Position numbers and translations under genes: made by a program | In this document: piece after piece, positions 222 through 54,241 of the stretch | Layout of the letters: each line of letters starts with the position of its first letter | Position numbering within the stretch: the first letter of the stretch is position 1 | Virus record (IMG/VR): IMGVR_UViG_3300037139_000049 | Span: 1 to 54,241 of that record | DNA length: 54,241 bases | Strand: one strand, 5' to 3' | DNA from: a virus | Notes under the pieces: generated by a model | What the model was told of the DNA's origin: nothing | Databases searched by the model: none | The model's input: only the letters and a program-made list of their open reading frames with translations

Positions 222-348
222 GTTGCCGCCCGCGAGCTGCTTGACCGTGGCTACGGTAGGCCGACGCAGACGACAGAGCTTAGAATGCTGACGTTGGATC
301 TATTCGACCAAGCGATCCAGGACCTGGAAACGCAACTTGCCGCCAACG
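222..348. repeat. Terminal redundancy, copy 1 (127 bp)
   Basis: These 127 bases are identical to the last 127 bases of the window (54115-54241). An exact overlap of 127 is what a de Bruijn assembler with k=127 leaves on a circular or circularly permuted molecule. It joins the small terminase gene across the ends. Confidence 0.85.
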
Positions 349-416
349 ATTCAGATCGACCCAGCCGTACCGCCGGAGAAGATTCGGCGCTACCGGCAGC
401 TACGCGCACAGCTTGA
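222..416 (+). CDS. Terminase small subunit, 3' part (continues from 53767)
   Basis: Carboxy-terminal 64 codons and TGA stop of the small terminase gene whose start is at 53767. Joined through the 127-bp overlap the complete protein has 180 residues. This part begins with VAARELLDRGYGRPTQ, a typical TerS segment. It overlaps the TTG start of the large terminase (337) by 80 bases, so the two subunits are translationally coupled. The apparent start at 126 comes from the duplicated terL piece and is not real. Confidence 0.75.
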   Translation, partial: VAARELLDRGYGRPTQTTELRMLTLDLFDQAIQDLETQLAANDSDRPSRTAGEDSALPAATRTA

Positions 417-1236
417 GGAGCACGAAGCACGCGGGCATTGGTTCTGCAAGAGGCCCGACTGTGACGGCCAGCCGCACGCCGGCTACCACTGGTGTGAGCA
501 TCCGCTAGGCGGTGAGCATGAGCCCGAGTGCAGGCACGCTCGAGCGGCACAGCGGCCACCGTGGCTCGATGGACTATCTGCCGCTCGCTACTGGATCGTC
601 ATGGCTGGGCGGGCGTGGGGCAAGACGCGCACGGGTGCCGAGTGGCTGGCGTATGAAGCGAGGACGCACCCGGCCCGCGACTTCGGTGTCATCGGCCGGA
701 CGATCGAACAGACCCGCGAGGTGTGCATGGAGGGCGAATCGGGGTTGCTGAGAGCCCTTGGGCTGAGCATCATCAGCAAGGAGTACAACCGCACGACGCA
801 GGAGATCAAACTGGCCAACGGCGCGACGATTTACGCCTACACGGCCGAGAATCCCGATTCGATGCGCGGGCCGAACCTCTCGGGGGCCTGGTGCGATGAG
901 CTTGCAACCTGGCACTACGAACAGGCGTGGCACGAGGGCCTGATCCCGGCCACGAGGATCGGCAACCCCCGCATCGTCATCACGACTACACCGAGGCGTA
1001 CCAAGCTCCTGAAAGCCCTTGTCGAGCGAGACGACGGCACGGTAGCGATGACCCGCGGCTCGATAGACGACAACGCGATCAACCTGTCCGAGGAGGCCCT
1101 GGTCGAGCTGCACCGCCGCTATGACGGTACACGGCTGGGCAGGCAGGAACTGGGCGGCGAGTTCTTGGAGGACGTGCCGGGCGCGCTGTGGACGGCCAGC
1201 GTGATCGAGCAGACACGGGGCGTGCTCATCGACTAG
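337..1236 (+). CDS. Terminase large subunit, ATPase half (split TerL)
   Basis: Packaging motor ATPase that pumps phage DNA into the prohead. Residues about 35-75 hold a Cys/His-rich stretch with RPDCDG, PHAGYHWCEHP and CRHARAAQRPP, as I recall from actinophage terminases. The Walker A motif is AGRAWGKTRTGAEW and Walker B is GAWCDELATW; ITTTPRR follows as the coupling motif. The reading frame stops after the linker motif GALWTASVIEQTRG, exactly where the nuclease domain should begin. The nuclease domain lies 540 bp downstream (1780-2460), beyond an endonuclease cassette. The TTG start is chosen because the sequence before the Walker motif is conserved in style and overlaps terS. Confidence 0.88.
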   Translation: MPPTIQIDPAVPPEKIRRYRQLRAQLEEHEARGHWFCKRPDCDGQPHAGYHWCEHPLGGEHEPECRHARAAQRPPWLDGLSAARYWIVMAGRAWGKTRTGAEWLAYEARTHPARDFGVIGRTIEQTREVCMEGESGLLRALGLSIISKEYNRTTQEIKLANGATIYAYTAENPDSMRGPNLSGAWCDELATWHYEQAWHEGLIPATRIGNPRIVITTTPRRTKLLKALVERDDGTVAMTRGSIDDNAINLSEEALVELHRRYDGTRLGRQELGGEFLEDVPGALWTASVIEQTRGVLID

Positions 1237-1275
1237 GCGGCCTCGATCGAGCCTATGTAGTCCTCTATAGTGCTA

Positions 1276-1281
1276 TATACT
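1276..1281 (+). promoter_or_regulatory. Leaderless -10 box (TATACT) for RHH/GIY-YIG cassette
   Basis: TATACT ends seven bases before the GTG at 1289, so transcription probably begins at the start codon. It lies just after the stop of the terminase ATPase half and gives the inserted cassette its own promoter. No convincing -35 box is visible. Confidence 0.5.
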
Positions 1282-1288
1282 CTCGCCG

Positions 1289-1426
1289 GTGGCGCTCAAG
1301 ACCATCTCGCTCCAACTCGACGAGGCTCTGCTCAAGCGGCTCGATGAGGTTCGTGGCGGGGTGCCTCGGCAGAAGTGGGTGGCGTGGGCGATTGAGGCTC
1401 TACTGCGACGAGAGGACGACAAGTGA
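1289..1426 (+). CDS. Ribbon-helix-helix DNA-binding protein
   Basis: A 45-residue Arc/CopG-type protein. The N-terminal strand is KTISLQL, followed by two helices (DEALLKRLDEVRGG and QKWVAWAIEALLRR). It starts with GTG behind a leaderless-type TATACT box and overlaps the GIY-YIG gene by GTGA. The likely role is autoregulation of the homing cassette or help in DNA targeting; that is inference from position. It lies inside the gap separating the two terminase halves. Confidence 0.75.
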   Translation: MALKTISLQLDEALLKRLDEVRGGVPRQKWVAWAIEALLRREDDK

Positions 1427-1725
1427 ACACGCTCTATCGGTTCTTCGACCACGAGGGGCGGCTGCTCTACGTCGGGAAGACCACGAACATCGCGGGACGA
1501 CTTGCCACGCATCGCTCGGAGAAGGCGTGGTGGACGGAGGTCGCGGCGATCGAAGTCGAGCACTACGCTTGCGAGCGGCATCTCAACCGGGCCGAGCGAA
1601 ACGCGATCATCGCCGAGCGCCCGCTCTACAACGTGACGCACAACCCGGCCCCGCCGACTAGTGCGGGAGTGCCACCGGTTGCGCCTCGGCCGATCGCAAG
1701 CGAGCCAGCGGTGGCAGTGGCATGA
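1423..1725 (+). CDS. GIY-YIG homing endonuclease
   Basis: A 100-residue GIY-YIG nuclease domain. LYRFFDHEGRLLYVGKT is the GIY...YVG core with its conserved spacing. The helix NIAGRLATH carries the catalytic Arg, and an E-R pair in HYACERHLNRAERNAI precedes PLYNV, typical of this superfamily. There is no obvious separate DNA-binding domain; the upstream RHH protein may supply specificity (inference). Start is GTG overlapping the RHH stop. The gene sits between the ATPase and nuclease halves of TerL, as free-standing homing endonucleases do in split phage genes. Confidence 0.85.
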   Translation: MNTLYRFFDHEGRLLYVGKTTNIAGRLATHRSEKAWWTEVAAIEVEHYACERHLNRAERNAIIAERPLYNVTHNPAPPTSAGVPPVAPRPIASEPAVAVA

Positions 1726-1767
1726 TGAGCGAGGTCACTAGGGCGCTCACCGCTCGCCGAACGCAAG

Positions 1768-1773
1768 TAGACT
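1768..1773 (+). promoter_or_regulatory. Leaderless -10 box (TAGACT) for TerL nuclease half
   Basis: TAGACT is followed by six bases and the GTG start at 1780. The same hexamer and spacing occur before 19191 and 33497. It implies that the nuclease half is transcribed and translated as its own protein rather than restored by splicing. Confidence 0.55.
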
Positions 1774-1779
1774 GCTCGT

Positions 1780-2460
1780 GTGAACGTCAGTCGCTCCGAA
1801 CTGTCGCGGATCGTAGTAGCGATTGACCCCGCCGGATCGGCGAATGAGGACTCAGACGACACCGGCATCATCGTCGTGGCCAAGGGTCCGCACCGCGTCG
1901 AGGAGCAAGCCGAGGTCAAATGCCAGTACCCCGACTGCGGCGGCCACGGCTACGTGCTCGATGACCGCACCTGCCACCTGCTGCCGCACGAATGGGCAGC
2001 AGTAGCGCTTGACGCCTACGACTACTGGAAAGCGGATCGTGTCGTGGCCGAGCGCAACTTCGGCGCGGACATGGTCGAGAACACGGTCAGGGCCGTGCGT
2101 CGTGGTGTGCCCTTTACGGCCGAGTGGGCATCGCGTGGCAAGCGGGTACGTGCCGAGCCCGTTGCTGCGCTGTACGAGCAGGGCCGCATCCACCATCTCG
2201 GCATCTTCGAGGAGCTCGAGCAGGAGCAGCAGACGTGGACACCGGACGAGCGCTGGTCGCCTAACCGCCTCGACGCGCTGGTGTGGGGCTTGACGAACCT
2301 CGGCCTGATCAAGGGCGGCCCTGGTGCCCTGCTTACCGCTAAGGGCGAAGTCCCCCGCAACACGGTTAGCCAACGGGAACGGGAGCTGAACGGTGGTAGG
2401 GACTCGCGGCAACTGCCGCCGCACCTGCGACGGCTGGCGAGGAACTCGGGACTGCGATGA
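1780..2460 (+). CDS. Terminase large subunit, nuclease half (split TerL)
   Basis: RNase H-fold nuclease domain of the large terminase, which cuts concatemeric DNA at packaging start and end. The acidic triad is visible: Asp in IVVAIDPAG, Glu in VVAERNFGADMV, and Asp in NRLDALVWGL. The C-tail is basic. It begins in the normal interdomain linker (SELSRIVVAIDPA), so little or nothing of the protein is lost by the split. It has its own TAGACT box and GTG start, and must pair with the ATPase half made from 337-1236. The stop overlaps the next start by ATGA. Confidence 0.88.
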   Translation: MNVSRSELSRIVVAIDPAGSANEDSDDTGIIVVAKGPHRVEEQAEVKCQYPDCGGHGYVLDDRTCHLLPHEWAAVALDAYDYWKADRVVAERNFGADMVENTVRAVRRGVPFTAEWASRGKRVRAEPVAALYEQGRIHHLGIFEELEQEQQTWTPDERWSPNRLDALVWGLTNLGLIKGGPGALLTAKGEVPRNTVSQRERELNGGRDSRQLPPHLRRLARNSGLR

Positions 2461-4631: not shown

Positions 4632-4798
4632 GGTGGCTTGTGTTCTCTGCGATGTGTGGCGGACTACTTGTGGGGATGGGTATTGGTTGGCTGGAGTCGT
4701 CAGCGGCAGGATGGCTCATCGTGACCTCCGTCGTCGGTGGTCTAGTGATTCTTGGGCTGGACTACTTCGTGGCCGATCGTTTCGGGAGTGGGCGATGA
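4628..4798 (+). CDS. Small membrane protein, two TM segments
   Basis: 56 residues from a GTG that overlaps the previous stop (GTGA). Two hydrophobic segments (LVFSAMCGGLLVGMGIGWL and WLIVTSVVGGLVILGLDYF) are separated by a short loop, and the tail is basic. Its place in the head-gene region is unusual for a holin. Role unknown. Confidence 0.6.
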   Translation: MRWLVFSAMCGGLLVGMGIGWLESSAAGWLIVTSVVGGLVILGLDYFVADRFGSGR

Positions 4799-4956
4799 GC
4801 AAAGCAACGCGCCGCACAGCCCGCAAGCAGGACATGGCACGGGTCGCTGACCGCCAGCTCCGGGCCGAGCTGGACAAGATCCGCAAACTGAAGGGGTTCA
4901 GGCCAGCTTCGGTTGGCGACATGCTCGACGCGGTTGGCAGACGAAAGGCGCGCTGA
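4795..4956 (+). CDS. Small basic protein
   Basis: 53 residues, highly basic and helical (ATRRTARKQDMARVADRQLR, ELDKIRKLKGFRP). ATGA overlap with the preceding gene and a one-base overlap with the next. No family recognised. Confidence 0.55.
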   Translation: MSKATRRTARKQDMARVADRQLRAELDKIRKLKGFRPASVGDMLDAVGRRKAR

Positions 4957-5300
4957 TGGCACTTACGTCGATCACGATTACGGCAACCGAGACGGCCCCC
5001 TCGGGCGGTGAAGCGACGGGCACGATCACCGCGACCCTCTCGGAGCAGATTCAGAACGCCACGACGACCATCGAGCCGGAGCCGATCCTCGGGGAACTCG
5101 TCGGCGGCAAACTCCTGAACCAAGCCCACAAAGCCTTCACGCTGTACGCCAACGATGATGCGGCGACTAGCCCGGCTGGCACCTACTACTCGTTCGTGGT
5201 GCAGGTGGCCGGCGCTCCGGTCAGGGAGTTCACGGCGATCATCAAACACACGGCAGCTGAAGGCAAGGTGGACATCACGGAATTGGAGACGCCGATATGA
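4956..5300 (+). CDS. Beta-sandwich virion protein (fibre or decoration type)
   Basis: 114 residues. It resembles a domain often found in actinophage tail fibres: GTITATLSEQIQN, then LYANDDAATSPAGTYYSFVV, then FTAIIKHTAAEGKVDITEL. Here it stands alone as one domain, so it may decorate capsid or tail. It ends with an ATGA overlap onto 5297. The similarity is remembered, not searched. Confidence 0.6.
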   Translation: MALTSITITATETAPSGGEATGTITATLSEQIQNATTTIEPEPILGELVGGKLLNQAHKAFTLYANDDAATSPAGTYYSFVVQVAGAPVREFTAIIKHTAAEGKVDITELETPI

Positions 5301-5545
5301 GCGCGAATGGCCAGCAGCAGGCACCGCCGCCAAGGCAGATCATGGAGTTGCCGCCGCCGTTCAATCACTTCGAGATCCAGGCGCACCCCGATCCGAACAT
5401 GGTCCTGTTGGTCATCGTGGACAGGACGAAAAACGAACTGCACTCCTATCCGATGGCGCGAAAGTATGCGGAGGAGCTTGGCCGTGAACTGACGGCGCCG
5501 AGCATCGAGGTTGCCAGCGTCATCCCGCCGAACGGCAAGGCGTAG
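5297..5545 (+). CDS. Hypothetical protein
   Basis: 82 residues. A Pro/Gln-rich N-terminus (QQQAPPPRQ) is followed by a small alpha/beta segment (FEIQAHPDPNMVLLVIVDRT). Coupled by ATGA to the upstream gene. No family recognised. Confidence 0.55.
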   Translation: MSANGQQQAPPPRQIMELPPPFNHFEIQAHPDPNMVLLVIVDRTKNELHSYPMARKYAEELGRELTAPSIEVASVIPPNGKA

Positions 5546-5813: not shown

Positions 5814-6028
5814 CGTACAGTAATGTCGCTGAGCAGCGTTGCGGAAGGCACTTTGCTCGCCACGATGGCTGGGCCTCGCTTCGACTTGACGGTGTGCTGG
5901 TGGGCGACATACGCAGGTGTGATCCATACAGCTGGCAGGCGCGGCTCTTGGATGGCACGATCATGCCACGGCTGTACTGGCGGCGGTTGGAAGCGGCCGA
6001 GGACCTACACGCACGCACGGCTCGCTGA
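5810..6028 (+). CDS. Hypothetical protein
   Basis: 72 residues, ATG overlapping the previous stop and stop overlapping the portal start by one base. Contains ARHDGWASLRLDGVLVGDI, suggesting a small beta fold. No family recognised. Confidence 0.5.
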   Translation: MTYSNVAEQRCGRHFARHDGWASLRLDGVLVGDIRRCDPYSWQARLLDGTIMPRLYWRRLEAAEDLHARTAR

Positions 6029-9000
6029 TGCCCCTCTTCCGCAAACAGCGCACAGCCAAGCACGGCCTACGTGTCCTCGCCGCCTCATCGCTCCGGCTGA
6101 ACCTCGAAGACAAGACGGAGGCCAAGCGGCTGCGAGCGCTGCGGCAGGGCTGGCAGTGCGCGGACGCGGAGACGGAGATCTTGACGACGCGAGGTTGGCT
6201 GGGCTATGGCGAGCTGGCCGTGGGTGATATGGCGCTGACGCTCAATCACGAGACCGGCGAGTCCGAATGGCAGCCGGTTGAAGCGGTCAACACCTACGAA
6301 GTCGAGGACGCCGAGATGATCAGCATGGAGGGTCGGTTGCATTCCTCGCTGACCACGACCGGGCACAAGTGGCCCGTGCTGGACAGGCAGAGCGAGTGGA
6401 CATCGGCCGATACTGCCCGCCGACGCGAAAGGCGGCACGGTCTTGAGCCGCAGACCGTACTGGCCGATAGAGCGCCTGCCACGATGGCGCGGCGTATGGT
6501 GTGTTCGGATGCCCTGACGAGCAGGCAGAGTCTTGTGACCGCCGCTCCATGCGTGGACCTACCGCAAGGGGAAGTTCACGACGATGCATTTGTCGAGCTG
6601 GTCGCTTGGTTCTGGACCGAGGGCTATCAGCGACCGACTGGCTACACCGCAATCACGCAGTCCGAGCGCGTAAATCCCGAGTGCGTGAAGCGTATCCGAG
6701 CGGCGCTTACTGAGACGTTCGGGCCAGCGCATGGGACGACAAGGGGCTTGACGCGACCGGCGTGGCGTGAGTCGCGCGATGGCGATTGTGTGGTGTTCGC
6801 ACTCAACCGCTTCGCTGGGCGTCGGCTCATGGCCGTGGCACCTTGCAAGATCGTGGATAGTGGATTCATTCGCTCGCTGACGTTGGCGCAGCTTGAGCTA
6901 TTCGTGCAGACCTCCATTGATGCCGACGGGCACCGCGACGATGGCACGAACGTGGTTCTCACACAGGCGAAGCGAGAGCGTATTGAGCCGCTGATCTTGG
7001 CGGCGATCCTAACTGGGCGCACCCCGCATCTCTACCCGAGACGCAATGGGCAATGGACCGTGCATCTCCGCGACAAGGCAACCGTCTCCCCAGTAGGCGC
7101 GTCGAAGACCGAATGGACCAACCGTGCCAAGGTTGTCCGCAAGCGCTACACAGGCACGGTCTGGTGCCCGACGCTGCCGAACCACACTTGGCTGGCACGA
7201 CGCAATGGCACCGTCTATTACACGGGCAACTCGGATGCGTGGAACTACCGCGACTCGATCGGCGAGCTTCGGTATGCGATCAACTTCCTCGCCAACTCGG
7301 CTGCCCGGATGCGTCTGTTCGTCGGCGTTGAGCCGATGCCAGGCGAAGAGGAGAAGAAGCCGCTCCAACTCTCGGAGTCAAGCGGCATCCCGGCCGAGGT
7401 CGCAACGGAGGCCAGCCTGGCGCTTGCAGACCTGGCCGCCAACGAAGGCACGCGCCGCACGATCATGAAGATGCTCTCGACGAACGTCTCAACGGCCGGC
7501 GAGTGCTTCGTGCTGGGCCGCGTTGATCCCGAGACGAGCGAGGAGACCTGGACGATCCGTTCGCTTGACGAGCTGGCGTTCCAGAACGACGAGTATGAGC
7601 TGCGCGAGATCCCCGATGGCCCGCAGGGGATCATCCCGTGGGTCAAGCTCGATCCGAAGTTGACAACCGCTTCGCGTGTTTGGTTACCGCACCCGCGTTT
7701 CAGCCTGCTGGCGGATTCCTCGATGCGGGCGATGCTGGCCGACAACGAGAGCCTGCTCATCATGCGCCGGATGATCCGCTCAGACTCACGCTCACGGCTC
7801 GGCAGGGGCCTGCTACTGATCCCCGACGAGCTGTCGATCAAGGTCCCCGAGGACGACAACGAAGACCCCGAGGCGGATCCGTTCATGGGCGCGTTGACGC
7901 AGGCGATGATGGAGCCGATCTCAGACGAGGGAGTGGCGAGTGCTGTCGTGCCGATTGTGATTCGCGGGCCTGCGGAGGCGATGAAAGAGCTTCGCAAGAT
8001 CGACCTCCACCAGCCCTATGAAAAGGAGGCGGCGGAAACGCGCGAGGAGCTGATCGGCATCATCGCCACGAGCTTCGACTTGCCCAAGGAGGTGATCATG
8101 GGCACGACCGATCTCAACCACTGGTCGGCGTGGAACGTCGACGACAACACCTTCCGCCACCACATCGAGCCCCATGTCATCGACCTTTGCGATGCGCTGA
8201 CCGGCGGCTACTTCCACCCACGCCTGTTGGCGAACGGCGTGCCGCCCGAGTACGTCAACCGGCTCGTGATCTGGTATGACCCGACGGAGCTCGTTACGCA
8301 TCCCGACCAGACCTCGGACGCGCTGAAGCTGCACGAAAACCTCGTGCTGTCCGATGCGGCGCTGTTGCGGATCGCGGGCTTCTCCGAGGAAGACGCACCA
8401 ACGAAGCAGGAGATCCAGGTGCGGCTGTTGGAGAAGATGCGCCAGTGGCCACCGAACCTCGTGATGGCGTTCTTGCACGCTTGGGACCCCACTCTGACCG
8501 CTCCGGCGATGGCTGGGCCTCCTGCGATCCCTGGCATCTCACCGAAGGGCGTCGAGACTGCACAGGAGCCGGAAGCGATCTTGCCCGGTCGTCCGGGTGC
8601 GCCGCAGATACCAGCCGAGACGAACGGCACGGCTCCCGTTAGTGAAGCCGAGCAGCCACAGATCGGGCCACCCGCCGAACCCATCACTGCTGCTGGCAAC
8701 CCCGAGACAGACCGTCTCAGCCGCAAGTTGGCGCAGATAGACCGGGACCTACGCACAAGGCTTCAGACGGCCGCCAATGCCGCGATGCGCCGCCAGCTTG
8801 AGCGTGTCGGGGCGAACCTCAGAACGAAAGTCGCCAAGGATGAGACGATGCGAACGAAGATCGCGCACCGGCCGAACGAGCGAGTCTCGGCGATCCTCGG
8901 GAAGCAGGCCCTCACCGCGGCTCATATCAGCCCGGAAGACTTGATGGGCAACGACTGGTCTGCCCTCAGAGCGCAGTTCTATGACTGGACGGAGGCCGCG

Positions 9001-9600
9001 CAGAAGCAGGCTGTCGCCACGGCGGTCAGGATCGGCGCTCTGACCGCAGAATCGGATGCTGTGAGGGTTGCTGAGGCCGCGATGATCCAGGGCCGTGACA
9101 AGGCGTGGGCGTGGCTGAGCGAAGCCCTGACGCATCTAGGCGACCATCTGCTGTACAACCCCGACGCCAACGTGGGACCAGCCGAGTGGGGCGATCTGAA
9201 TCCCGATGCGCTGGTGCCGACGGGTACGATCCGCGCGGCACTCGGGATTGCGGGTGGCGGCGACGTGGCCCTTGATCCCGGCGGTGTCACGACGATGGCG
9301 GCAGGCGAAGTGGTCGGGCAGATCGGCACGGGCGCGACGATCACCGAACTGCTCGGCGAAGGTGGCACCGAAGTCGCCGCATACGTTTGGGAACACGGCT
9401 CAATGACGATCCATCCGTTTGAGCCGCACCTAGCGCTCGACGGCGTGCAATTCGTCAACTTTGACGATCCGGTCTTGGCGAATCCCGATGACTGGCCGGA
9501 CAACCAATTTCTGACGCCCGGAGACCACAGCGGGTGTGGATGCGATGCCGTTCCGATCTACGTCACCGCAGAACAGGCCACCGAGTTAGAAACCGCGTAG
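6028..9600 (+). CDS. Portal-MuF fusion protein with intein
   Basis: 1190-residue precursor. Residues 1-43 and 402 to about 870 form the portal, the dodecameric DNA gate at the capsid vertex. Portal signs include WNYRDSIGELRYAINF, ARMRLFVG and the DLNHWSAWNVDDNTFRHHIEPH segment. A Pro/Ala-rich linker leads to a C-terminal MuF-like (SPP1 gp7-type) domain ending in IHPFEPHLALDGVQF and TPGDHSGCGCDAVPIY. An intein occupies residues 44-401; after its removal the protein has 832 residues. Portal-MuF fusions are known in actinophages. The start overlaps the previous stop by one base. Confidence 0.85.
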   Translation: MPLFRKQRTAKHGLRVLAASSLRLNLEDKTEAKRLRALRQGWQCADAETEILTTRGWLGYGELAVGDMALTLNHETGESEWQPVEAVNTYEVEDAEMISMEGRLHSSLTTTGHKWPVLDRQSEWTSADTARRRERRHGLEPQTVLADRAPATMARRMVCSDALTSRQSLVTAAPCVDLPQGEVHDDAFVELVAWFWTEGYQRPTGYTAITQSERVNPECVKRIRAALTETFGPAHGTTRGLTRPAWRESRDGDCVVFALNRFAGRRLMAVAPCKIVDSGFIRSLTLAQLELFVQTSIDADGHRDDGTNVVLTQAKRERIEPLILAAILTGRTPHLYPRRNGQWTVHLRDKATVSPVGASKTEWTNRAKVVRKRYTGTVWCPTLPNHTWLARRNGTVYYTGNSDAWNYRDSIGELRYAINFLANSAARMRLFVGVEPMPGEEEKKPLQLSESSGIPAEVATEASLALADLAANEGTRRTIMKMLSTNVSTAGECFVLGRVDPETSEETWTIRSLDELAFQNDEYELREIPDGPQGIIPWVKLDPKLTTASRVWLPHPRFSLLADSSMRAMLADNESLLIMRRMIRSDSRSRLGRGLLLIPDELSIKVPEDDNEDPEADPFMGALTQAMMEPISDEGVASAVVPIVIRGPAEAMKELRKIDLHQPYEKEAAETREELIGIIATSFDLPKEVIMGTTDLNHWSAWNVDDNTFRHHIEPHVIDLCDALTGGYFHPRLLANGVPPEYVNRLVIWYDPTELVTHPDQTSDALKLHENLVLSDAALLRIAGFSEEDAPTKQEIQVRLLEKMRQWPPNLVMAFLHAWDPTLTAPAMAGPPAIPGISPKGVETAQEPEAILPGRPGAPQIPAETNGTAPVSEAEQPQIGPPAEPITAAGNPETDRLSRKLAQIDRDLRTRLQTAANAAMRRQLERVGANLRTKVAKDETMRTKIAHRPNERVSAILGKQALTAAHISPEDLMGNDWSALRAQFYDWTEAAQKQAVATAVRIGALTAESDAVRVAEAAMIQGRDKAWAWLSEALTHLGDHLLYNPDANVGPAEWGDLNPDALVPTGTIRAALGIAGGGDVALDPGGVTTMAAGEVVGQIGTGATITELLGEGGTEVAAYVWEHGSMTIHPFEPHLALDGVQFVNFDDPVLANPDDWPDNQFLTPGDHSGCGCDAVPIYVTAEQATELETA
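6157..7230 (+). other. LAGLIDADG intein inside the portal gene
   Basis: 358-residue protein-splicing element. It begins with Cys44 (CADAETEILTTRGWLGYGEL, block A), carries TTTGHKW as the block B T..H motif, and ends TWLARRNGTVYYTGN before Ser402. The penultimate residue is Gly rather than His, seen in some inteins. The two LAGLIDADG helices are LVAWFWTEGY (near 6600-6630) and LFVQTSIDADGH (near 6900-6935), so it is a full-length intein with its own homing endonuclease. Ser at +1 is a valid splice nucleophile. Confidence 0.88.
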
Positions 9601-9618: not shown

Positions 9619-11742
9619 ATGAAGCAGCGAAAGCTATCCACCGGCCAGCCACGCTCGGCCCTCATCGCCTCCTATGCGGCCGCGGTTCCACCGCCCGCAC
9701 CCGAGAAGACGCCGCCACCGCCTGCGGATGACAAAGCACCACCGGAGCCCGACGCCAAGCCCGAAGGCCCCGACCTCGACGCCGACGTTGACGTGACCAA
9801 GGCCATCGACGCCGCTATCAAGGCTCAGGAAGCCGACCCGGACAAAGCCGACCCGAACGACGAGAAGGTGCTGAAGCTACTCAACGAAGCCAAGGCAGCG
9901 CAGGCGGCTGACACGGAGGACACGGCCAAAGAGTCAGCGGCACCGCCCGAGAAGGTGCCACCACCTGCCAAGGCTCCCCCGGCCGAGGTCAAGACGGCGG
10001 CAACCCAAGCCCCGGTCGTCGTACCGCCCGCCACGGCCGACAAACCCGCGAACCCCGTTGATGAGAACGGCAACGTGGACGACGAACACCCCTGCACACG
10101 CCCGGACTGCGGACACTTGGCCTCAGCGCACGAAGACCTGCCCGCTGGCGATAACACCGGCAAATGCACGATGGGTGGCTGTCATTGCCCGGCGATGGAA
10201 GTGGCCTCAGAACAGGACGAACCGGAATCCGAAGACGCCTCGGATATGGAGGCACCGGCCGGCGCAGGCGACGATGAGCAGAAGACGGCCATCGGCCAGC
10301 CCGTCCCCGTGGCACCAATCGACGATGCTGCCGCGCAGGAACAGAACCCACCGCCGCCGGTTGAGAGTGGCGAAGCGATCGGGCCAGCCTTTACTGCTGT
10401 GCTCATCATCGAGGGCCAGCCAACGGGTGACGGCCGGGAAATCAGCCCGCAGGCGTTGACATGGCGCACCCCGCCGATCCCGCTGATGTTCCTGAAGACC
10501 GAGACGCACGATCCCGAGGGCTTCGATATGAACGACCCGGCTGTGATCGGCGGCAATATCACGTCCGTCACGCGCGAACAGGGCGAGGGTGACACGCAAC
10601 TGCTGATCGGCAAGGGCAACCTTCTGACGACCGAAGACGGCATCTACGCCGCCGAAGTGATCGAGGGGATGGGCCGCATGGGGATCAGCGCAGACGTGTC
10701 CGTCGGTGATGTGGACATCTCGGTTGGTGACGTGGACGAGATTGGCTTCCCGACGGACATCACGGAAACGCTCACCACGGGCACGCTCATGGGTGCCACT
10801 GTCTGCCCGTTCCCGGCGTTCGAGGGTTGCTACATCGTGCTCGGCGACGAGCTGCCCGGTGCTGAGCCGAAGCAGATCGAGCAGGCCGTGGAAGCCCCCG
10901 AGCAGATCACGGCCGGCGGCATGTTGATCCACTGGATGTCCGAGACGGAGTGCGAGCCGTGCCAGCAGGGTTTTGAGGTCATCACAGCGTCAGGGGCAGG
11001 GCCTACGCGCCCCCCGGCCGCATGGTTCGCTGATCCGGGCTTCACCGAGGACGATGGGCGGCTGGTGGAGATTCTCGGCAAGCACGGCCAGCGCGAAGAC
11101 AAGTACGCCTGTCCGATCACCGTCGATGATGATGGGCGCGTTTACGGGCACCTTGCGGCATGGGGAACGTGCCATTCCGGCAAGCCTGGCCGCTGCGTGA
11201 CTGCACCGCACTCGGCCAGCGACTACGCCCACTTCAAGCACGGCTACGTCATCACGGCCGAGGGCGAGAAGATCCGCGTCGGCTCGATCACCGCTGACAC
11301 CGGCCACGCGAATCTCCAGTTCGGTCCCTATGCGGCGATGGGTCACTACGACAACACGGGCTATCAGGTCGCGGACGTGAACGCGGGCGAGGACGCCTAC
11401 GGCATCTGGCTTGCCGGAGCGGTTCGGCCCGACGCAACCGAGGAGCAGCTACGCAAGCTCATCGCGTCATCGCAGTCTGGGGACTGGCGCGAGATCGCTG
11501 GCCAGCTTGAGCTTGTCGCCTCGCTCTGTGTCCCGCTACCAGGATTCCCATTGGCTGTGGTTGAGGAGGCGTTCGTCGCTCATGGCCAGTTGGAGACGGT
11601 CACGGCGGCCGGTGCGAACGTTATGGCTCGGCTCAAGATGCCCGCTGAGCCCGTCGAGGTTGACCTGTTGAAGCTGGCCGCTCCGACGTTGACCCGGTTG
11701 GTTCGTGAGGATGCGCGGGAGCGGATCGGGGCGCTGGGATGA
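9619..11742 (+). CDS. Capsid maturation protease / scaffold protein
   Basis: 707 residues, preceded by acaggaggcacc. A long Pro/Glu/Ala-rich acidic region (residues 20-150) is scaffold-like. A CTRPDCGH...CTMGGCHCP zinc-knuckle lies near residues 158-195. The protease-type domain (about 255-415) has FTAVLIIEGQPTGDGREI, LTWRTPPIPLMFLKTETHD and GRMGISADVSVG. The C-terminal region (about 490-650) carries RVYGHLAAWGTCHSGKPGRC and GDWREIAGQLELVASL, as I recall from actinophage head proteases. It lies between portal and capsid, the normal place. Confidence 0.78.
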   Translation: MKQRKLSTGQPRSALIASYAAAVPPPAPEKTPPPPADDKAPPEPDAKPEGPDLDADVDVTKAIDAAIKAQEADPDKADPNDEKVLKLLNEAKAAQAADTEDTAKESAAPPEKVPPPAKAPPAEVKTAATQAPVVVPPATADKPANPVDENGNVDDEHPCTRPDCGHLASAHEDLPAGDNTGKCTMGGCHCPAMEVASEQDEPESEDASDMEAPAGAGDDEQKTAIGQPVPVAPIDDAAAQEQNPPPPVESGEAIGPAFTAVLIIEGQPTGDGREISPQALTWRTPPIPLMFLKTETHDPEGFDMNDPAVIGGNITSVTREQGEGDTQLLIGKGNLLTTEDGIYAAEVIEGMGRMGISADVSVGDVDISVGDVDEIGFPTDITETLTTGTLMGATVCPFPAFEGCYIVLGDELPGAEPKQIEQAVEAPEQITAGGMLIHWMSETECEPCQQGFEVITASGAGPTRPPAAWFADPGFTEDDGRLVEILGKHGQREDKYACPITVDDDGRVYGHLAAWGTCHSGKPGRCVTAPHSASDYAHFKHGYVITAEGEKIRVGSITADTGHANLQFGPYAAMGHYDNTGYQVADVNAGEDAYGIWLAGAVRPDATEEQLRKLIASSQSGDWREIAGQLELVASLCVPLPGFPLAVVEEAFVAHGQLETVTAAGANVMARLKMPAEPVEVDLLKLAAPTLTRLVREDARERIGALG

Positions 11743-45247: not shown

Positions 45248-45412
45248 CTGAACAGGATAGCGCGTGGGCTGGGGATTGGGAGGCCCACGATCCCCAGCCC
45301 CGCGCCGTTTCCTCGATGCCCAACCTGCGACGGCTCCGGCATCCGCATCCACGGGGCCAGCCAAGACGCGTGGTGCTCAACGTGCAAGCCTGATGTTGGG
45401 CGGCTGGTGTGA
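45248..45412 (+). CDS. Possible small zinc-ribbon protein, start unclear
   Basis: The frame ending at TGA 45410-45412 has FPRCPTCDGSGIRIHGASQD and AWCSTCKPD, a CxxC...CxxC knuckle like others in this genome, and overlaps the helicase GTG (GTGA). No ATG, GTG or TTG lies near the front of the knuckle region. A strong hairpin lies inside it (45266-45300). Confidence 0.35.
   Translation: MNRIARGLGIGRPTIPSPAPFPRCPTCDGSGIRIHGASQDAWCSTCKPDVGRLV
45266..45300 (+). terminator. Strong hairpin before the helicase-methylase gene
   Basis: gggctggggat and atccccagccc are perfect arms (11 bp) with a 13-base loop, followed by ccgcgccgtttcct. May be a terminator with a distant T-run or a regulatory RNA fold. 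Confidence 0.4.
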
Positions 45413-47664
45413 GCTATCAGGAGTTCGTGGCGAGCAAGATGCAGGCCGCGGTGCCGTTGGCCGAGCGTGAGGCCGTAGCGCCAACGTGGGATCTGTTTCC
45501 TTGGCAGACGAAGCTGGTAGAGCGCGCCCTATTCCGTGGCCGCTCGGCGCTGTTCGCTGACACTGGCACGGGCAAGACGCGGATGGAGCTGGCGTGGGCC
45601 ACGGCGGTCTGTGCGGCTATCGCCAAGCCGACGCTTCTGCTCACGCCGCTGGCCGTCTCCAAGCAGATCGTCCGCGAGGCGGGAGAAGTCGGAGCCGAGG
45701 CTGCCTACTCATCTGGCGGTGAGCCCGAGAAGTGGATCACGGTCACGAACTATGAGCGGCTGCACAACTTCCGGCCAGAGCACTTCGGCGCGATCGTGCT
45801 TGACGAGTCGAGCATCCTCAAGAGTTTCGACGGCAAGACGCGCAAGGACCTGACGGCTTTCGCTTCGACGCTGGCCTACCGGCTCTGTGCCACGGCCACG
45901 CCCGCGCCGAATGACTACCTTGAGCTGGGCCAGCACTCCGAGTTTCTATCGGTGCTCAGCGCTAAGGAGATGATGGCGCTGTTCTTTACGCAGGACGGCA
46001 ACTCCACGCAGAAGTGGCGGATAAAGCGCCACGCTGAGACGGACTTCTGGCGGTGGGTTTCAAGCTGGGCGATGGCGATGCGCCGGCCGTCCGACGTGGG
46101 TTTTCCCGAGGGCGATGCTCTCTACGATCTGCCCCCACTGTCGATCCACCAAGTGCAGGTCGAGGCTCTGAACGATCACGCGATGGGCACGCTATTCCGT
46201 GACGAGGCCCGCACGCTCTCGGAGCGTAGGCGAGCCCGGCAGGAGACGCGAGACGAGCGCGTGAAGGCGGCGGCCGAGCTGGTCGCCAAAGAGCCTGGTG
46301 AGCAATGGCTTCTGTGGTGCGATCTGAACGCCGAGTCTGAGCAGTTGGCGAAGATCATTCCCGGAGCGGTCGAGGTCCGCGGCTCGGACTCGCAGGAGCA
46401 CAAGGAGAACGCGCTGCTCGGGTTCGCCGACGGGACGGTCAAGGTGCTCGTCTCAAAGCCCTCGATCTGCGGTCACGGCATGAACTGGCAAGGATGCGCA
46501 CGGATGGTGTTCGTCGGGCTCTCGGACTCATTCGAGCGCTACTACCAGGCTGTGCGTCGGTGCTGGCGGTTCGGCCAAGAGCGGCCAGTCGAGGTCTACG
46601 TGGTGACGGCCGACGTTGAGGGTGCCGTGGTCCGCAACATCGAAAACAAGCAACGGAGGGCAGAGCAGATGGCTGAGGAACTTCTAGAGGCGATGGCCGA
46701 CCGGACACTTGAGCATTTGGCCAAGGGCACCTACGAATCAGATGACGCCGAGGGCGATGGCTGGAAGGTCATGCTCGGCGACTGCGTGGAGCGATTGAGC
46801 GAGGTCGAGGACGACTCCGTGGGCCTGTCGGTGTTCTCGCCGCCCTTCCCGTCGATGTACGTCTACACCGACCAGGCGCGGGATATGGGCAACGTGGCGA
46901 GCGTCGAGCAGATGATTGAGCACTTCGGCTACCTCGTGCCCGAGCTGCTGCGCGTGACGATGCCCGGCCGCTCCGTGGCGATCCACCTGGCGCAGGCACA
47001 GACCCGCAAGCGCGACGGCGAGGAGATCGGCCTGCGCGACTTCCGCGGCGCGACGATTCAGGCGATGGAAGCGGGCGGCTGGACCTACTACGGCGAGGTC
47101 TGCATCGACAAGGACCCGCAGGTGAAGGCGATCCGCACGAAGGACCGGGGCCTCTTGTTCAAGACGCTGGCGAAGGACTCGGCCAACATGCGCATGGCGC
47201 AGGCCGACTACCTGCTGCAATTCCGCAAGCCGGGCGAGAACCCCCAGCCGATCGCCGCGGGGATCTCCGAGCGCTACGGCAACACGGACGGCTGGATCAC
47301 GCCCGAGGAGTGGATCGAGTGGGCGGCGCCCGTCTGGTATCGCGCTGGCCCAGACTACCCCGGCGGCATCCGCGAGACGGACGTGCTCAATGTCTCGGCG
47401 GCGAGAGATGAGCGAGACGAGCGCCACCTGTGCCCGCTACAGCTTGGCGTGATCGAGCGCGCGATCAAGCTGTGGTCAGCGCCGGGCGATCTGATCCTCT
47501 CGCCGTTCGCGGGCGTGGGCTCGGAAGGCGTGGTGTCCGTGGGGCTTGGCCGGCGCTATGTCGGAGTCGAGCTGAAGCGTTCCTACTGGATGACGGCCTG
47601 CCGCAATATCGCCGAGGCGCAGGCCAGCTCTGGCTCCCAGCTCACCTTCGCAGCATCGGAGTAG
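45409..47664 (+). CDS. SNF2-type helicase fused to DNA methyltransferase
   Basis: 751 residues. Helicase half (1-430): motif I ALFADTGTGKTRMELAWA, motif II IVLDESSILKS, motif III LCATATPAPND, and motif VI AVRRCWRFGQ. Methyltransferase half (about 445-751) is of the permuted beta class: catalytic SPPFPSMYV first (N4-C or N6-A type), AdoMet-binding LSPFAGVGSEGVVSVGLGRR then YVGVELKRSYW last. One chain that may move along DNA and methylate it. Protection from host restriction is a likely role (inference). Confidence 0.87.
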   Translation: MSYQEFVASKMQAAVPLAEREAVAPTWDLFPWQTKLVERALFRGRSALFADTGTGKTRMELAWATAVCAAIAKPTLLLTPLAVSKQIVREAGEVGAEAAYSSGGEPEKWITVTNYERLHNFRPEHFGAIVLDESSILKSFDGKTRKDLTAFASTLAYRLCATATPAPNDYLELGQHSEFLSVLSAKEMMALFFTQDGNSTQKWRIKRHAETDFWRWVSSWAMAMRRPSDVGFPEGDALYDLPPLSIHQVQVEALNDHAMGTLFRDEARTLSERRRARQETRDERVKAAAELVAKEPGEQWLLWCDLNAESEQLAKIIPGAVEVRGSDSQEHKENALLGFADGTVKVLVSKPSICGHGMNWQGCARMVFVGLSDSFERYYQAVRRCWRFGQERPVEVYVVTADVEGAVVRNIENKQRRAEQMAEELLEAMADRTLEHLAKGTYESDDAEGDGWKVMLGDCVERLSEVEDDSVGLSVFSPPFPSMYVYTDQARDMGNVASVEQMIEHFGYLVPELLRVTMPGRSVAIHLAQAQTRKRDGEEIGLRDFRGATIQAMEAGGWTYYGEVCIDKDPQVKAIRTKDRGLLFKTLAKDSANMRMAQADYLLQFRKPGENPQPIAAGISERYGNTDGWITPEEWIEWAAPVWYRAGPDYPGGIRETDVLNVSAARDERDERHLCPLQLGVIERAIKLWSAPGDLILSPFAGVGSEGVVSVGLGRRYVGVELKRSYWMTACRNIAEAQASSGSQLTFAASE

Positions 47665-53766: not shown

Positions 53767-54241
53767 ATGAGCAAGCGAGCCTGCAGGGGAACAGCCAAGA
53801 AGACGGGCGAACCCTGCGGAGCGCCACCACTGAAGCCGGGAACGATCATTGAGGGCATCACCGTCAGCGGCGACTGGTGTCGTAAACACGATCCGCTTCT
53901 ACCCGTTTCCGCCCGTTTGGAGCGATTTCAGGTCGGGGGTGGCAGGCCACGCAACCCACGAGCAGTGGACGTGCTCAAGGAGCGCATAGAGGCCAATGTC
54001 GACGCCGTGCTCGATCCACTGTGGGATGCGTTGCAGGCGGATCGTGGATTGGCGCTCAACGTCAAGGGCGGCGGCATGGTCATCGGTTACTCACCAGACC
54101 ACCCAACGCGGATCGTTGCCGCCCGCGAGCTGCTTGACCGTGGCTACGGTAGGCCGACGCAGACGACAGAGCTTAGAATGCTGACGTTGGATCTATTCGA
54201 CCAAGCGATCCAGGACCTGGAAACGCAACTTGCCGCCAACG
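53767..54241 (+). CDS. Terminase small subunit (5' part, continues at 349)
   Basis: Joined over the circular junction it encodes 180 residues. A Cys-containing front (KRACRGTAKKTGEPCGAPPL, DWCRKHDPLL) precedes a helical region (RAVDVLKERIEANVDAVLDP) and VIGYSPDHPTRIVAARELLD, typical of actinophage TerS. It recognises the packaging site and brings DNA to TerL. The Cys front recalls a zinc site. terL starts inside its 3' end. Confidence 0.78.
   Translation, partial: MSKRACRGTAKKTGEPCGAPPLKPGTIIEGITVSGDWCRKHDPLLPVSARLERFQVGGGRPRNPRAVDVLKERIEANVDAVLDPLWDALQADRGLALNVKGGGMVIGYSPDHPTRIVAARELLDRGYGRPTQTTELRMLTLDLFDQAIQDLETQLAAN
54115..54241. repeat. Terminal redundancy, copy 2 (127 bp)
   Basis: Identical to 222-348. 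Joining 54241 to 349 restores an uninterrupted small terminase reading frame, which supports circularity. Confidence 0.85.

Follow-up and report, generated by a model that had tools for sequence, protein, structure and literature searches.

The question raised by this locus is how a phage large terminase gene (terL) came to lie in two pieces and whether its products could still work as a packaging motor. The window, meaning the whole 54,241 nt stretch analysed (IMG/VR record IMGVR_UViG_3300037139_000049), carries terL as two ORFs, 337-1236 and 1780-2460, interrupted at the linker between the ATPase and nuclease domains. The TerS-like ORF, both terL halves, and the features mapped between them are on the + strand, and loci in other genomes are denoted by L numbers.

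The last 127 nt of the window (54115-54241) are identical to positions 222-348, and the molecule is therefore a closed circle of ∼53.9 kb. Positions 1-221 are an assembly tip composed of a terL fragment (an exact copy of 1044-1143) flanked by exact copies of 222-342, and do not represent genuine sequence order. Translation across the join revealed an ORF, TerS-like by position, that begins at 53769, runs to 54241, and continues through the join into 349-416, where it overlaps the ATPase half. The gene order around the join is the TerS-like ORF, TerL, two portal-family ORFs, the major capsid protein, and the tape measure protein. The portal-family ORFs are neighbors (6028-9600 and 9619-11742, matching phrog_776 and phrog_859), and the second has additional matches, in its C-terminal part, to head maturation protease families. 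Elsewhere in the window, a single ORF at 45409-47664 joins a DNA helicase (residues 24-441) to a DNA methyltransferase (residues 442-741).

Both pieces of terL were identified by Pfam. The ATPase half (337-1236, 299 aa, TTG start) matches Terminase_6N (PF03237) with an E value of 2.9e-22. The nuclease half (1780-2460, 226 aa, GTG start) matches Terminase_6C (PF17289, 5.9e-9) and phrog_979 (6e-23). The sequence-only reading held that the gene was split in its natural interdomain linker with all Walker and acidic-triad motifs in place, and both points were borne out. The ATPase half keeps Walker A (GRAWGKT), Walker B (GAWCDE) and motif III (TTTP), the RNase H acidic triad of the nuclease half is complete (D16/E91/D165), and the linker position agrees with alignments to intact TerLs. 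Together these features identify a large terminase of the Terminase_6N/6C type. Where the ATPase half begins is uncertain because the adjoining positions 1-221 are the chimeric tip of a contig that is a closed circle.

Recurrence was examined by a profile scan over fetched TerL loci and HNH relatives. Each scan returned the best 80 hits, so the frequencies of split genes given here are not prevalence estimates. terL is a single ORF in nearly all of the at least 310 loci with both halves (at least 269 distinct TerLs), including L003, the closest relative among the matches listed (N half 61–63% identical). In the L003 record (G001) an HNH_3 gene at 2211-2342 lies upstream of the intact terL. The measurable linkers, from GALW to RIVVAIDP, are 14–46 aa long, mostly 17–20. 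When the insert is removed from the window, TASVIEQTR is followed by VNVSRSELS (...GALWTASVIEQTR joined to VNVSRSELSRIVVAIDPA), which leaves a linker of ∼18 aa. As this residual linker is of normal length, the point of insertion is inside the linker, at the Arg/Val boundary. Alignment with the intact TerLs thus places the predicted cassette at 1216-1778, from the Arg codon of IEQTR to the Val codon of VNVSRSELS, with an ambiguity of ∼2 nt at its ends. The insert would start inside or just past the Arg codon and end ahead of the Val codon, which now serves as the GTG start of the nuclease half. GVLID, the final five residues of the N half, is probably derived from the insert.

Two small ORFs occupy the insert, leaving only 52 + 54 nt of non-coding DNA. 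The second (1423-1725, 100 aa) begins at a GTG within the stop overlap of the first, the two sharing 4 nt (GTGA), and is a GIY-YIG endonuclease matching PF01541 (6e-7) and phrog_3312 (2e-22). The superfamily residues Y5/Y16/G18/R26/H30/E58/N70 are all present. An AlphaFold2 model resembles the GIY-YIG domain of UvrC (TM 0.62, E value 3e-4), although residues 71-100 were modeled with low confidence. A catalytically complete endonuclease ORF therefore lies between the TerL halves; the protein has no DNA-binding domain of its own. The first ORF (1289-1426, 45 aa, putatively leaderless GTG start) is a probable RHH gene. Its match to PF01402 (E value 0.02) is under the Pfam cut-off, its modeled monomer consists of two helices compatible with an RHH fold in which the N-terminal strand is unresolved, and its GC3 is phage-like.

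The nearest relatives of the endonuclease are found in the phrog_3312 and phrog_16880 families of actinobacteriophages, whose domains are ∼41–54% identical to that of the window. Unlike the window protein, these are sited between other genes and often carry extra domains. None of those fetched splits terL or follows an RHH gene, and the suggested search for the RHH plus GIY-YIG pair elsewhere found no RHH gene adjacent to any related GIY-YIG gene fetched. No second copy of the cassette was found, and a search for the GIY-YIG across 396 genomes from the phylum to which a Streptomyces contig belongs gave one distant match. Related GIY-YIG domains are fused to varied proteins, among them the products of plasmid genes with GntR or XRE regulator annotations, and on this basis a separate DNA-binding partner for the window endonuclease is conceivable. 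That the RHH-like protein is this targeting partner, or a repressor, is a guess, since no fetched GIY-YIG relative has an adjoining RHH gene. In L151 (737-2560) and L152 a GIY-YIG relative is fused C-terminally to a protein that bears a GETGSGKS-type ATPase motif and by eye looks FtsK/TraB-like.

The cassette was proposed to have its own promoter, and the nuclease half a -10 box. A sigma-70 two-box scan found no promoter, and what stands of the first proposal is a TANNNT box ∼7 nt upstream of the RHH start. The second was upheld by TAGACT (1768-1773), a -10-like box of putative function 6 nt before the start of the nuclease half, which has no Shine-Dalgarno sequence. In a post hoc count, TANNNT stands 4–8 nt ahead of only 1.2% of + strand ATG/GTG codons in the window. 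Such boxes also occur 6–7 nt ahead of the endonuclease-operon start in L161 (TACAGT) and L208 (TACAAT), two loci with HNH genes described below. Because the boxes are well placed, rare in the window, and recurrent in these loci, a leaderless reading of the window starts is plausible. The perfect palindrome TATAG-TG-CTATA (1266-1277), whose exact 12-mer occurs once in the window, overlaps the -10-like TATACT (∼1276-1281). Judged from its position, it would make a fitting operator for an RHH repressor and would suit autoregulation; the candidate binding sequence is TATAGTGCTATA.

In three other lineages the interdomain linker of terL harbors a different endonuclease, an HNH_3 protein. In L161, whose N half is 60% identical to that of the window, the HNH_3 gene (4755-5345, Pfam 7e-7) overlaps the ATG of the nuclease half; the L161 record (G003) contains four HNH_3 genes in the phage. 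In L208 a related HNH gene (44% identical; 1728-2435, Pfam 2e-9) overlaps both the stop of the N half and the start of the C half. L383 and L384 are related genomes with an ATPase half of a different type and an HNH gene (Pfam 1.3e-10) whose stop is followed after 7 nt by the nuclease half, with GGAG ahead of its ATG. Of the at least 37 listed loci whose ATPase half is L383-like, none but these two is split, and in the next nearest (68%) terL is one ORF. At 2288-2350 in L383 and 1899-1961 in L384, a strong hairpin (CCCACGGGAGAG...CUCUCCCGUGGG) separates the TerL N half from the HNH gene. A second hairpin encloses the HNH ribosome site. Both resemble the hairpins that restrain homing endonucleases of T4-type phages and Aeh1 (PMC2988022).

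Other interrupted loci are not firm cases. In L160 (4606-4760, the same contig as L091) the TerL halves are out of frame with an overlapping ATGCTAG stop/start and no cassette, which may be a split without an endonuclease, a frameshift, or a single-base assembly error. L084 (1981-3757), in which the tail of the N half is far longer and the frame changes ahead of the nuclease half, may likewise be a split without a cassette or a single-base assembly error. L084 and the window have common Cys-rich insertions in both halves (WFCxRPxCDGxPHAGxHWCxH and GPH...C...C). L289 was rejected as a linker split, as its frame break is within the nuclease domain.

In the ATPase-half tree the window falls into one group with L003, L160, and L161, while L208 and L084 are elsewhere and L383/L384 are further off. 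If L160 and L084 are taken to be split, the well-supported branches require no fewer than three state changes. Since L383/L384 are more distant still, splitting probably occurred more than once; all of the split cases are metagenome assemblies.

L383 and L384 also allowed selection to be measured on halves that are already apart. dN/dS between them is 0.126 for the ATPase half, 0.068 for the HNH gene, and 0.042 for the nuclease half. As both halves are under purifying selection while separate, the split terL is probably functional in this pair. Although borrowed from a relative, this comparison is the strongest evidence that a TerL split at the linker is viable; no close strain of the window was found in which selection on its own halves could be tested. 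Identity between L383 and L384 is lowest in the second half of the N half (73–76%) versus ∼94% in the HNH gene and C half. The divergence profile is mosaic, and a co-conversion tract around the HNH gene is not claimed. Relative to the others, the N half of L383/L384 is only ∼30% identical but the C half 48–60%. An exchange of nuclease halves is unnecessary to account for this, as both types occur together in the intact TerL of Methanosarcina virus MetMV. Recombination of a foreign nuclease half into the window was also rejected. A quick tree set its C half apart from L003, L160, and L161, but an AU test does not reject the shared clade (p 0.456).

Several other explanations were weighed. An intron carrying the endonuclease gene, group I or other, could be spliced out to restore a single TerL chain. 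terL is a known target of group I introns (PMC12363816; PMC11878797), and in the window the two halves share one frame, which joins such as 1223/1779 would preserve. The Rfam gathering (curated) threshold missed the T4 introns, so a permissive E value of up to 10 was used; in this mode the group I intron of T4 nrdB was recovered at 3.1e-7, while no intron was found in the window, L161, L208, or L383. Non-coding DNA in the window insert amounts to only 52 + 54 nt, and in L161 and L208 the HNH ORFs overlap or nearly abut both TerL halves, which leaves no room for a ribozyme. The intron fold that would have overturned the sequence-only reading was thus not found in these loci, and we consider this explanation very unlikely. 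An intein was rejected because the TerL frame has stop codons at 1234-1236 and 1768-1770, which contradicts a Hint domain in frame with both halves, and the Pfam matches of the four ORFs include no intein family.

It is also very unlikely that the window terL is simply broken, the phage being defective or the nuclease half no longer expressed. Both halves lie on branches roughly three times longer than those of their sisters and the nuclease half is without a Shine-Dalgarno sequence, but the catalytic residues of both halves are complete, GC3 is normal, and the HNH-split pair L383/L384 is under strong purifying selection. The endonuclease might instead be a packaging accessory encoded in the packaging operon, a role proposed for the HNH proteins beside terL of HK97 (gp74), GVE2, and HrdP, and not a mobile invader. 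HNH genes are commonly found beside terL, as in Gordonia phage Kabocha, directly after an intact terL, and in Skunavirus with HrdP (PMC12724721). This too we regard as unlikely to the same degree, as the linker holds unrelated nuclease families (GIY-YIG, and HNH_3 with Cys-rich repeats), the closest relatives have no nuclease there, and relatives of both nucleases are found elsewhere in other phages. A misjoining of cassette and terL during metagenome assembly can be given hardly any weight. The chimeric tip at the contig start is partly terL sequence, yet its junctions and those of the cassette are at different places, the cassette fits the linker exactly, and four other assemblies have the same layout.

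The explanation we favor, and consider quite likely, is that a free-standing, intronless homing-endonuclease cassette encoding the RHH-like and GIY-YIG proteins was inserted in the terL linker, leaving a two-chain TerL. Counting against it are the long branches of the window halves, the sub-cut-off RHH match, the lack of an RHH plus GIY-YIG pair among relatives, and the failure to find a second copy of the cassette. Under this explanation, the linker could be severed without destroying either domain, allowing the gene to survive, with the insert supplying a stop codon for the upstream half and a start codon at its edge (GTG 1780) for the downstream half. The endonuclease would cut uninterrupted terL alleles and the cassette would be copied in through break repair. 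The cassette and the nuclease half may each be transcribed from their own leaderless promoters, with the RHH protein repressing the operon, lending DNA binding to the nuclease, or both. The two TerL chains would then assemble non-covalently into a packaging motor. This last step is not a given, since T4 gp17 cut at its linker loses translocation (PMC3012670), but the presence of other endonucleases at the same joint in unrelated phages suggests that two separate chains can make a working motor. A bolder version is possible but doubtful: TerL would be naturally two-chain, its linker a place where intronless endonucleases land again and again, and the window invader a two-protein system in which the RHH provides DNA recognition and autorepression for a GIY-YIG without a binding domain.

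In models of packaging, it is through the linker that ATP hydrolysis in one TerL domain drives the other. A terL kept split in several unrelated lineages would mean that covalent coupling is unneeded or is replaced by another contact, and phages with a split terL would be ready-made two-chain motors for testing domain coupling. The case further shows different endonuclease families repeatedly invading one linker, with no intron hiding the damage. We found no report of a terL split without an intron in the open-access literature; the host gene and the recurrence appear to be new, while the kind of event is already known.

Free-standing endonucleases split Aeh1 nrdA (mobE), T4 gene 60/39 (mobA), and phage 25 gene 43A/B (a seg-like gene), and the split products of Aeh1 nrdA and phage 25 gene 43 reassemble (PMC2988022). 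The likeness of the window to Aeh1 nrdA/mobE, claimed from the start, is supported by independently inserted HNH genes at the same linker, intact close relatives, the absence of an intron signal, and purifying selection in one split pair. In both, a free-standing endonuclease without an intron breaks up an essential gene at a position critical for function, leaving two ORFs. The window differs from Aeh1 in its target (terL), in its insert (RHH plus GIY-YIG, with HNH_3 in other loci), and in that several lineages have been hit at this one site. Group I introns interrupt terL in the Jug phages and in Bastillevirinae such as SIOphi (PMC12363816, PMC11878797). These share the target and the accompanying endonucleases with the window, but they are spliced, whereas in the window no intron is detectable and the insert is taken up by ORFs. 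T4 gp17 cut in vitro at the same ATPase/nuclease break point keeps its ATPase and nuclease activities and loses DNA translocation (PMC3012670). That cut is artificial, whereas the natural splits appear to be maintained.
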